From the NCBI GenBank assembly GCA_013214025.1, contig JABSRN010000172.1:1-51718 (forward strand): a DNA stretch of 51,718 bases. The letters run 5' to 3'. Of the stretch, positions 4,839-7,769 are shown piece after piece (position 1 is the first letter of the stretch; every line of letters begins with the position of its first letter). A program made the translations under genes and the position numbers. The notes beneath the pieces are model-generated. The model was given only the letters and a program-made list of their open reading frames with translations. It ran no database searches and had not been told where the DNA came from. The stretch is from Polyangiaceae bacterium (GTDB lineage Bacteria > Myxococcota_A > Polyangia > Polyangiales > Polyangiaceae).

Positions 4839-6008
4839 TTACTGGTCCGCCGGAATCACGGTGGCGAGGCTCACCTCAAGCAAGTAGTCGAAAGCTATAC
4901 TGGGATCGGACGCGGAATGCCGGATCAAGTAACGGCCAGCCGCCAGCGTTACGGTTTGATCGGGACACTCTTGGGTGACGACTGTCGCGCTCACATCTCC
5001 TCCGACGTTCTCGACCGAGAGACGGGACTCGGGCACACCGGTGCACCAGTTGAAGTTGTGTTTGAGTACCTCGACGGTTACTTCCGACTCGACCGGTACA
5101 TTGAACTCGAAGAGATCGGGGTTGCATGCCTGTCCGCTGCCGCCCAAGCTGCCGTAAACGCGCCACGGTCCGTCACCGACGAGGCGGTTCGCGTTGGACG
5201 GCACACGGTTGGGCTCGGTCTCGTAGACGGTTTGCTGGTTGTTGAGATCATCCAGGCTGTTGATTTCTGATTGGCACGTCGAGCTGCAGCCGTCGCCGTC
5301 CTCATCGAGGGGCGGGAAGTTCGAGTTTGGATCGCAGCCTTCGCCTGCTACCCGTTCGCCGTCCCCGCATACCACGCGGACCGCTTGCACGCTGCCGGCG
5401 GCGCCAGTGCTCAGTCCGTCGACGCTGAGAATATAGTTCCCGGTCAGATCCGCGTTGATGACCATGCGCTCAAAATCGCCAGTGTCACAGGTATCGCTAG
5501 CTCCTTGGCAAGATGTGGCGTTGCAGTCGGACAGCCAATAGAGGACAGGATCCTGACTTCCTTGGGCCGGGGCGGTGATGTGCCAAGTTTCTCCGGCTTC
5601 GAGGTGGAGTGCGAAGAAGGCGTCAACGCCGTCTGCCGAGCTGCCGACCCCGCAGCTCGTGAGATCCGAGAAATTGTCCCCCATGCCGGCGGTGTTGATG
5701 GACAACGAGCTGGTGCTTGAGCTGAGCTGCATCAAGCCAGCTGTCGGCTCGCAGCTGTCCGAGGGGGAGCCTGTGGGACCATTGCCACCGCTGCCACCGG
5801 TTGCGTTGGTCTCGCCGCCTCCAGATGCGGTGCCGCTCTGACGGTCGCTGCCGTCAGGAGTTGTCGTGGTGCTCCCGCCTTGTCCGACCCCAGCATCAGC
5901 GGGGTTCCCGGGGGGGGCTTCGAGTTTGCCCTCGAGTTCGGAGCTGAAGATGCAGCCGCCCAGCCAGAGGGAGAGCAGGATGGGCGCGGAGTAGCGGGAA
6001 GTACGCAT
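4839..6008 (-). CDS. Secreted lipoprotein with DUF4215-type Cys repeat
   Basis: The 389-residue product starts with a lipoprotein signal ending LWLGGC (C19), so it should be lipid-anchored in the envelope. A low-complexity Gly/Ser/Thr linker covers roughly residues 30-85. Two beta-rich segments follow (about 90-210 and 265-385). Each resembles the pre-peptidase C-terminal-like domain often found in secreted myxobacterial proteins: aromatic residues, YILSVDG and YLIRHSASD strands. Between them, CGDGERVAGEGCD and DGDGCSSTCQ form the Cys pattern of the DUF4215 myxobacterial repeat. No catalytic motif is seen. It is likely a surface or periplasmic binding protein. The ATG at 6008 directly precedes the signal peptide. 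Confidence 0.8.
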   Translation of the reverse strand: MRTSRYSAPILLSLWLGGCIFSSELEGKLEAPPGNPADAGVGQGGSTTTTPDGSDRQSGTASGGGETNATGGSGGNGPTGSPSDSCEPTAGLMQLSSSTSSLSINTAGMGDNFSDLTSCGVGSSADGVDAFFALHLEAGETWHITAPAQGSQDPVLYWLSDCNATSCQGASDTCDTGDFERMVINADLTGNYILSVDGLSTGAAGSVQAVRVVCGDGERVAGEGCDPNSNFPPLDEDGDGCSSTCQSEINSLDDLNNQQTVYETEPNRVPSNANRLVGDGPWRVYGSLGGSGQACNPDLFEFNVPVESEVTVEVLKHNFNWCTGVPESRLSVENVGGDVSATVVTQECPDQTVTLAAGRYLIRHSASDPSIAFDYLLEVSLATVIPADQ

Positions 6009-6053: not shown

Positions 6054-6293
6054 CTATGACTCTACCGCGTCTCGCCGGGGCGGGAGGCTAATGTTGGGAC
6101 TCGCCCGGTACCGCGAGGGGGGGGCCGGGGATCGATACTGGGCTGAGGGTACTGCTACTGGAATTCGGAGTTCCCGAATGTTCAAGAGGCGGGTTCGCAG
6201 CGTCGGCGCTTCGAACACCGGATCGAAGGCGCACCGATCCCCCGAGGCTAAGCGACTCAGGTGCTCGTCCGTCGAGGGTTCGGTATCAGTCAT
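6054..6293 (-). pseudogene. Possible 5' remnant of an ECF sigma factor gene
   Basis: The first 29 codons read MTDTEPSTDEHLSRLASGDR then CAFDPVFEA. This is the usual opening of ECF sigma-factor region 2 (LxRLAxGDRxAFDxVFE). After this the frame becomes Arg/Pro/Ser-rich, with no region 2.2-2.4 or region 4, and ends after 79 codons. It therefore looks like a truncated or frameshifted remnant. It lies 60 bases downstream of the Cys-rich peptide gene in the same direction. ECF sigma genes beside small Cys-rich secreted peptides occur in metal-stress loci, but this copy cannot encode a working sigma factor. A chance resemblance remains possible. Confidence 0.35.
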
Positions 6294-6353: not shown

Positions 6354-6494
6354 TCAGCAATCACACTGGACACATTGGCATTGTCCACACCCACAAGCCG
6401 CGGCAGCGAAGCCAGCGAAGCCAGCGAAGCCAAGCGTGGTCATGGTAATTCCTAGGGCCAATACGATCTTGTTCATCTTCTTTAGGGGGTTCAT
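6354..6494 (-). CDS. 46-residue secreted CXC-repeat peptide
   Basis: This small gene encodes a basic start (MNPLKKMNK), a hydrophobic signal segment (IVLALGITMTTLGF then AGFAGFAAAA) and a 13-residue tail CGCGQCQCVQCDC. The six Cys fall at residues 34, 36, 39, 41, 44 and 46, a strict CXC-XX-CXC-XX-CXC array running to the last residue. After Sec export, cleavage before or near C34 would release a thiol-dense peptide. C34 could alternatively be a weak lipobox Cys (AAAC). Such an array suggests soft-metal binding (Cu, Zn, Cd, As) or a modified-peptide precursor; both are inference. A purine-rich AAAGAGA lies about 5 bases upstream of ATG 6494. An ATG at codon 7 is an alternative start. I recognise no family. 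Confidence 0.6.
   Translation of the reverse strand: MNPLKKMNKIVLALGITMTTLGFAGFAGFAAAACGCGQCQCVQCDC
6405..6431. repeat. 9-base tandem repeat, three copies
   Basis: AGCGAAGCC is repeated three times in a row. On the minus strand it encodes the GFA-GFA-GFA stretch at the end of the hydrophobic segment of the small Cys-rich peptide. The 9-base unit keeps the frame, so copy number changes would lengthen or shorten the signal segment by three residues each. Confidence 0.9.
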
Positions 6495-6702
6495 CTTGTC
6501 TCTTTCCGGCGGCGGTCAATCGGCACGCTCACCAGACCTAGGCAGCAGAAACCCCAAGCGTGACCCCCAGACAAAAAAACTTCACCTCCGGCGATTTTGC
6601 CGACGAATGCCCGGTTTCGTAGCGACCGGATCCATTCGGAGTGGGGTCAGTCGGTCACAGCGGCCGGCCCCAGCGCCCCGCGATAGCGGCGTGGCAGTAG
6701 TC

Positions 6703-7287
6703 TCACTCCTGGGTGAAGCAGAGGCGAAAATCGTCGATCAGAGGATCGCAGGTTTCGGAGGTTGGCCTTCCGGTGTCGTCACAAGTCACGGTCGCGAAAG
6801 CTACACATTGCATGGCGAGATCCCACTGGTAGGAGCAATCAACGGTCGCTATCGGGGGGTTGAGGTTGCCCTCGCAATCCAGCTCGCACTCTTCCGCAGT
6901 CGGGGTGCGCTCGCAGCCTGCATCGCTCATCGAGCCGCAGCCCTCCTCGCACAGGACGTCTTTCCCAAGTCGAGGTCCAGCATCTACAGGAGTGGCTGCG
7001 TCCGCTGAAGCGGCGGCGCCACCCGAACCGCCAATGCTGGTGCTGCCGCCGTAGCTGCCGGAGTCTTCTTCGGAGTTACCGGTACCGCCGGTACCCGAGC
7101 CGCTACTAGAGTCGGGACTGGCATCAGTCGACGCCCCGCTTCCCCCGCTGCCCGTCGGGCTGCTGGCGCCGCTGTCGGTTTCCGGGTTTCCCGAACCGGA
7201 TTCCTCAGAATCCTCCCCGCCGCAGCCCAATACGGCGACGGAAGCGATAAGCGCGAAGCGCGGGAAGAGTCGTGCGATGCGCGCCAT
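6703..7287 (-). CDS. Lipoprotein with Gly/Ser linker and Cys-rich tail
   Basis: Starting at ATG 7287, the protein has 194 residues. The signal peptide MARIARLFPRF.. ends in a lipobox SVAVLGC (C22). Residues about 25-90 are a Ser/Gly/Thr-rich linker. The C-terminal 80 residues hold about ten Cys, including CEEGCGSMSDAGCE, CELDCE, a later DCSYQWDLAMQC, and CDPLIDDFRLC, forming a small disulfide-stabilised domain common in myxobacterial surface lipoproteins. An in-frame ATG at 7314 would add nine polar residues before the signal and is less likely. The function is unknown. It shares this linker-plus-Cys-domain plan with the protein at 48360-48953. Confidence 0.75.
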   Translation of the reverse strand: MARIARLFPRFALIASVAVLGCGGEDSEESGSGNPETDSGASSPTGSGGSGASTDASPDSSSGSGTGGTGNSEEDSGSYGGSTSIGGSGGAAASADAATPVDAGPRLGKDVLCEEGCGSMSDAGCERTPTAEECELDCEGNLNPPIATVDCSYQWDLAMQCVAFATVTCDDTGRPTSETCDPLIDDFRLCFTQE

Positions 7288-7769
7288 GGGTTCTCCTGAT
7301 TGTGGGGAGCACACTACGCCTTATGAGTTCAGTAGGCGAGGGCATTGAGCGCCGCTGGTCACACCGGTGGTCAATACTTTCGATTCAGCTCACAAAGTTT
7401 TATCCCACCCCATTTCGGCTGATGTTGGCCGACCGGAGGTCCGCTTGTCGCTGTTTGCTTGGGCCGGCTTCCGGACGCGTGCTCCGGAAAAAGTCTAAAC
7501 GAAGGATTTGGGCTAAGTACCAAGGCCGAACACCTAGTTTGAATAAATGTTCGTCTGGTCAGACCGTGTCTTGTTCGGTGTTGCCCCAGGCCGTTCTCGC
7601 GCTGCCTGTTCGTGTCCGCGCCGGTCTGGGGGCAGTGCCCTCCACTTGGCTGTAGACCGTGCCGTCCGGGACAACTTGCAGGGGGCGAGTGGCGCGCCAT
7701 CAGCTGGTTTCCGACAGGGGCGCGTCAGTCAGCCGACGATTGGACAGCGCGAAGGGCGCGGGCCACAAC
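7288..7769. other. Intergenic region without a supported gene
   Basis: About 480 bases lie between divergent genes, so promoters for both the lipoprotein (minus) and the HugZ-like gene (plus) should be here. The 12-base palindrome GTCTGGTCAGAC at 7553-7564 could be an operator half or chance. The overlapping open frames on both strands show no recognisable domain or good ribosome site. Confidence 0.4.

Follow-up and report, generated by a model that had tools for sequence, protein, structure and literature searches.

The short cysteine-rich peptide described here belongs to a gene set found at scattered points of the myxobacterial phylum. From its sequences, this set resembles a metal switch of the copper type that produces a metal-binding peptide of its own. 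In relatives, the set forms a cassette in which a Cys peptide (gene 1, usually) is followed by an ECF sigma factor (gene 2) and a Cys-bearing membrane protein (gene 3). The peptide would, in what we regard as the likely explanation, be an exported, metallothionein-like buffer for Cu(I) or another soft metal under the control of a dedicated sigma/anti-sigma pair. The copy in the window (the whole 51,718-nucleotide stretch of DNA analysed) has kept its peptide gene, while the cassette behind it is truncated. The following features are referred to throughout:

6207..6272, minus strand: remnant of the N terminus of a cassette ECF sigma factor, TDEHLSRLASGDRCAFDPVFEA (hmmsearch, cassette sigma profile)
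6354..6494, minus strand: open reading frame (ORF) encoding the 46-residue Cys peptide, with its stop codon (window ORF translation)
6357..6395, minus strand: C-terminal CXC-XX-CXC-XX-CXC array, residues 34-46 (alignment A2)
6396..6494, minus strand: signal-peptide-like segment, residues 1-33 (sequence and alignment A2)
6499..6507, minus strand: purine-rich, Shine-Dalgarno-like GGAAAGAGA (read by eye)
6539..6564, minus strand: ECF-type promoter-like motif GTCACGCTTGGGGTTTCTGCTGCCTA, GTCAC-N17-CCTA (pattern and profile R1)

The ORF at 6354-6494 (-) translates to MNPLKKMNKIVLALGITMTTLGFAGFAGFAAAACGCGQCQCVQCDC followed by a stop codon, exactly the secreted-type frame with a perfect CXC-XX-CXC-XX-CXC ending that a sequence-only reading of this DNA had claimed. 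Its start contains lysine and leads into a hydrophobic stretch, and the tail CGCGQCQCVQCDC places C34, C36, C39, C41, C44 and C46 at the extreme C terminus, all six being invariant across the 10-sequence alignment A2. Within the signal-like segment, a 9-bp tandem repeat (about 6404-6431) encodes FAGFAGFA. A six-frame scan of the window finds the pattern CXCxxCXCxxCXC a single time, and the pattern is absent from a simulated 5.77-Mb second-order Markov sequence (one simulation only). A leave-one-out peptide HMM, built from nine relatives with the window peptide left out, ranked this frame first among 1327 window ORFs (E 4.4e-4), with a score of 16.9 bits that is to be read beside a composition bias of 14.5. 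The missing array in the simulation, the HMM rank, the existence of relatives and the rank of the promoter motif led us to reject a chance ORF, and the earlier impression that such an array exceeds chance is upheld. Lipoprotein-like genes with Ser/Gly-rich linkers lie on both sides of the peptide on the same strand (4839-6008 and 6703-7314 (-)), and neither matches Pfam at E <= 1.

A search of 97 related genomes at the protein level, which listed matches in 46 at E <= 1, yielded the first relative in G060 (E 0.006), whose signal-like segment is followed by CPCGDCPCGDCPCG with spacing identical to the window array. A two-row profile of the window and G060 peptides matched 35 of 183 genomes of the order at E <= 0.1 and brought in similar short peptides from five Sorangium-type genomes, G155, G051 and G011; the remaining rows of both searches were mostly parts of long frames (some were inspected), and neither search listed a genome of the window's own genus. 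Matches to a ten-row profile at E <= 0.01 fell in 14 of the 183 genomes, ten of them already inside the profile and three new (G053, G132 and G073); G084 (E 0.005) was dropped for want of the motif, as was a second G051 match (E 0.01). The G055 peptide was reached via its cassette gene 3. In 14 genomes, the window genome included and all from the same order, the peptide has three CXC units close to its C terminus, separated by linkers of 2-3 residues, and the short peptides of the 13 others, including Sorangium cellulosum, likewise have a signal-like start. Exact 2-2 linkers occur in seven: the window genome, G060, G057, G018, and Sorangium cellulosum So0157-2, So ce26 and So ceGT47 (G174, G175 and G176). 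This retention of the array with varying linkers is the behaviour that the sequence-only reading had proposed looking for among homologues, and the outcome that it named as a refutation, the lack of any homologue that keeps the Cys spacing, did not arise. Coding constraint is indicated in five Sorangium peptide coding sequences: their pN/pS, when pooled, is 0.31 (0.16-0.87 for single pairs), and codon position 3 holds 65 of 118 pairwise differences. A comparison at the DNA level matched the region in four of 39 genomes, one of them the own genome; the matches in G005 and G068 are just the 29-base FAGFAG repeat in unrelated reading frames without a Cys array, and that in G009 is a short stretch lying outside the peptide.

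Beyond its closest relatives, the cassette peptide is diverse. Some members end in ...CCPGPCCASGCPMCP or ...CCCDNCDGCDCGCD, and others take longer multi-Cys forms or have only ...CGLCPF. Because the variation is so wide (two to many Cys), common descent of all cassette Cys peptides is not established. The window peptide itself has the signal-like start, the three CXC units and the upstream GTCAC-N16/17-GCCTA motif that mark the family. Pfam searches with 10 CXC peptides returned a best E of only 0.029 (PF12749, one peptide), and NCBIfam searches with two gave no meaningful match. Together with the shared signal-like segment and array, these results favour the earlier suggestion of a thiol-rich, probably metal-chelating exported peptide of no described family. 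Its lipopeptide variant is not supported, as no lipobox-like motif is conserved before the first Cys in alignment A2 (by eye).

Among 377 genomes sampled across the phylum, 30 matched a profile of gene 3, a membrane-type protein of about 180 residues. Removing G000, the window genome (a relic fragment), and G441 (weak, no motif), and adding six loci from the two-row peptide profile, gave a set of 34 loci, outside which stand the gene-3 genomes G051, G132 and G008 and a second G363 match. The sigma gene precedes gene 3 in all 34 (32 by HMM; G266 and G009 by eye), and a secreted-type Cys peptide lies ahead of the sigma gene in 27. No such peptide was seen in the other seven cassettes (G002, G095, G108, G076, G066, G032 and G021), nor in the Myxococcus- and Archangium-type loci. 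Gene 2 is identified as a sigma factor by TIGR02937 in all three members tested (62.5, 54.2 and 47.9 bits against a cut-off of 42.9) and by Sigma70_r2 in three members (47.4, 41.1 and 25.8 against 24).

In our alignments of gene 3, one Cys is invariant and three are nearly invariant across 29 diverse members, and six are invariant across 18 named members. The better conserved members share a Cys hairpin, H-x-C-x4-C-x3-C-x3-C, and a further Gly-Cys site. AlphaFold2 (18 sequences) predicts six helices for the M. xanthus member, and at 95-104 a hairpin that bears Cys, with a mean pLDDT of 80. Since gene 3 has no Pfam relative (NrsF, PF06532, matched 0 of 29 members at E <= 1) and a PDB fold search with the model found nothing better than E 1.1, it is from gene order and predicted shape that we name it a probable anti-sigma factor.

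A shared promoter-like motif, GTCAC-N16/17-GCCTA, ties the peptide to the cassette. It stands ahead of the sigma gene in 31 of the 34 loci, 21 with the strict form and 10 with a variant second box, and is absent there in G002, G066 and G032; the loose pattern that served to find the variants also gave three additional, chance-like matches. Among the 18 named gene-3 loci, 16 have the motif ahead of the sigma gene; nine of the 18 repeat members of the 34-locus set, and the nine new ones all carry it. GTCAC lies 51-84 bases before the peptide start in 22 of 24 loci (the window, the C159 relic described below, G051 and 21 cassettes) and 33 bases before it in two. Cassette loci totalling 346 kb contain 26 copies of the strict motif, a count that includes the loci where it was first noticed. 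Ten first-order Markov simulations gave 1.2 on average (range 0-6), and 200 kb of other loci in related genomes gave none.

The site at 6539-6564 (-), ahead of the peptide ORF, is the sole strict match in the window. Profile R1 was built from 28 sites (alignment A8), none from the window genome, and its boxes are invariant by construction, since the sites were chosen from 55 strict-pattern finds, all with 17-base spacers. Within the window this profile places the same site first (15.3 bits, E 0.0022). When 150 of 5490 first-look candidates from the own genome were scored, the C159 relic ranked first (20.7 bits, E 0.004) and the window site second, at an E of 0.25 that is not significant genome-wide; ranks 3-7 lack a full box.

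Genes behind further copies of the motif bear on the identity of the metal. In Myxococcus xanthus AM003, the motif precedes an outer-membrane efflux (OEP) gene followed by an RND gene, and at L161 it precedes a short ORF that is followed by a multicopper oxidase gene. In G032 the motif stands ahead of an OEP gene whose score slightly exceeds the cut-off (23.9 against 22). By eye only, the gene behind the motif is OEP-like in G051 and oxidase-like in G008. That copper-type efflux and oxidase genes share the promoter motif lends weight to the earlier metal-chelating proposal. In G002, where the motif is absent, an RND gene is followed by the sigma gene, with a P-type ATPase bearing heavy-metal domains in the vicinity. 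These neighbourhoods point to copper as the metal of the cassette, with silver or mercury as possible alternatives; room for mercury is left by MerT-like genes in G076, scoring below cut-off (13.5 bits against 32.9), and, by eye, in G066.

The M. xanthus locus (AM003, L162:2204-6491) holds a sigma gene, the Cys membrane protein, a lipoprotein-like CCEMC protein, a second motif copy and the OEP-RND operon, and its sigma/Cys membrane protein pair is a candidate regulator of a Cus-type system. In G076 (L125:3211-6679), three motif copies surround the sigma/gene-3 pair, accompanied by a CCPW protein, the MerT-like protein, a rhodanese and a YnfA-family protein.

In the mechanism that we propose, the peptide would probably be exported by the Sec system, and, either in the periplasm or in the cell's surroundings, its six thiolates would buffer Cu(I) or a comparable soft metal. 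Gene 3, with its six predicted helices and Cys hairpin, would hold the ECF sigma factor until metal bound at its Cys residues caused release. The freed sigma factor would then drive transcription from GTCAC-N16/17-GCCTA, that is, of the peptide and of its own gene, and in some genomes it may also act on the efflux (OEP/RND) and multicopper oxidase genes.

In the window, sigma homology behind the peptide stops after about 22 codons. The remnant at 6207-6272, possibly starting from an ATG at 6293, is found by the cassette sigma profile with an i-Evalue of 3.2e-5 (the next window ORF has E 1.4); a single blastp comparison with the G060 sigma factor gave merely E 0.26, and Pfam and NCBIfam gave nothing. 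No further sigma homology was found behind it, and the best gene-3 profile match in the window is not significant (E 0.27), so that the peptide is not followed here by an intact sigma gene and gene 3. A second decayed cassette lies elsewhere in the same genome (G000:C159:15954-16192, locus L109), where a promoter and an MNRIRKMNKL start are joined to a gene-3 Cys-motif fragment; its promoter/start region aligns with the window at a local score of 61, against 25 or less in 200 shuffles. This fragment is the only gene-3 match in the genome, which is 97% complete and contains no intact cassette that we could find, and its best sigma matches reach 55.9 bits, against 110-309 for cassette sigmas. 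From the two remnants we conclude that two cassette copies have decayed, with the peptide intact in one, and the lack of any intact sigma or membrane gene of the cassette kind in this genome makes the window peptide an orphan. Such an orphan is in decay, unless another sigma factor serves it.

These remnants leave a considerable, if somewhat less than even, chance that the window ORF is a dead relic from which nothing is made, its motif and peptide being chance survivors; this would be compatible with the explanation given above. The early end of the sigma homology, the second relic on C159 and the want of an intact cassette all fit such an end, as do the multiplied 9-bp repeat in the signal region and the missing Pro of the CPC units, although the latter is missing in G011 and G053 as well. 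Against decay of the peptide gene itself, the frame, start, RBS-like site, six Cys and both promoter boxes are all intact, the genome encodes other ECF factors, and about 3% of it is missing from the assembly.

The position of the peptide admits another function. Copper leader peptides of the CruR and CutF types govern how the gene behind them is translated, through metal binding and export during their own synthesis, and the Cys peptide could similarly be a nascent-chain sensor for the sigma gene, which it precedes in most cassettes and whose start also lies behind the window peptide. We think this unlikely. In G051, the peptide sits with its own motif on a different contig (locus L077) from the sigma/gene-3 cassette, with no adjoining sigma gene seen; some members are long multi-Cys proteins (for example, G225, G286 and G027); and four cassettes with no peptide (G095, G021, G108 and G076) nevertheless keep the motif before the sigma gene.

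Highly improbable, in our judgement, is a precursor of a modified natural product, namely a bufferin-like metallophore processed by an MNIO enzyme: bufferins are likewise Sec-exported Cys peptides, and sigma/NrsF genes occur in Buf1 clusters (excerpts of PMC12452194), and an MNIO gene (PF05114) is present somewhere in 27 of 36 genomes, the window genome included, but nine genomes have none, seven of these nine carry the peptide (among them G011 and G053, 97-98% complete), and no bufferin family appeared among the Pfam matches of the 10 peptides. Where MNIO and cassette share a contig, the only case in which distance was judged, the nearest pair is about 42 kb apart (G095, itself without a peptide), and in the finished chromosomes of Sorangium the separation exceeds 0.7 Mb. 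In the other genomes that have both, MNIO gene and cassette are on separate contigs. The window genome has two convergent MNIO genes (G000:C22:8735-12308) on a contig other than that of the window. MNIO modification thus appears unlikely as the general case, and of the sequence-only reading it is the exported thiol peptide that survives, the lipopeptide, and the modified product as the general case, being unsupported; the cassette, the promoter motif and the orphan state had escaped it.

Returning to the exported metal buffer, a wider version can be put forward tentatively, with a chance that we place just below even. Myxococcota at large would make unmodified, Sec-exported, metallothionein-like peptides, small enough for gene callers to miss, under their own pair of ECF sigma and six-helix Cys anti-sigma factors and its promoter; the Myxococcus pair would also regulate a Cus-type efflux operon, and the peptide might feed back on the sensor by taking up the inducing metal. 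If this is true, Myxococcota own an extracytoplasmic switch dedicated to soft metals, with secreted thiolate peptides among its outputs, which makes a parallel to the bufferins, though apparently one without enzymatic modification. For Myxococcus xanthus and Sorangium, the work names a sigma factor, a promoter sequence and candidate targets that can be put to the test, and it adds two protein families, the CXC peptides and gene 3, for which no Pfam model was found. The gene set is apparently undescribed, judging by the titles and abstract openings that searches of an open-access library listed.

Among known systems, metallothioneins offer a likeness, seen in sequence alone, in their short, Cys-rich form and CXC-type array. 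The cassette peptides differ from them in their signal-like start, their sigma cassette and the want of a confident family match. A regulatory likeness is to Caulobacter SigF-NrsF, which, in excerpts of PMC3511200, combines an ECF sigma factor, a six-TM negative regulator with conserved Cys, a response to metal, and small DUF2282 targets that have a membrane/signal segment and a shared promoter motif. There, substitution of two conserved Cys of NrsF causes sigmaF to accumulate in the soluble fraction (PMC3511200), and the DUF2282 proteins have been identified as bufferins (excerpts of PMC12452194). Gene 3 resembles NrsF in its conserved Cys, its predicted number of helices and its place beside a sigma gene, but has no PF06532 match; the 10 CXC peptides belong to no bufferin Pfam family and have no linked MNIO that we could see, and the cassette peptide gene stands ahead of the sigma gene. 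CorE of Myxococcus xanthus, a second likeness, is a copper-dependent myxobacterial ECF sigma factor acting on cuoB and copB (excerpts of PMC3107203). According to the same excerpts, the copper sensor of CorE is a Cys-rich domain within the protein itself, and no anti-sigma factor is cotranscribed with it, whereas the eight cassette sigmas that we aligned are without a Cys-rich tail and have a Cys membrane protein encoded behind them.
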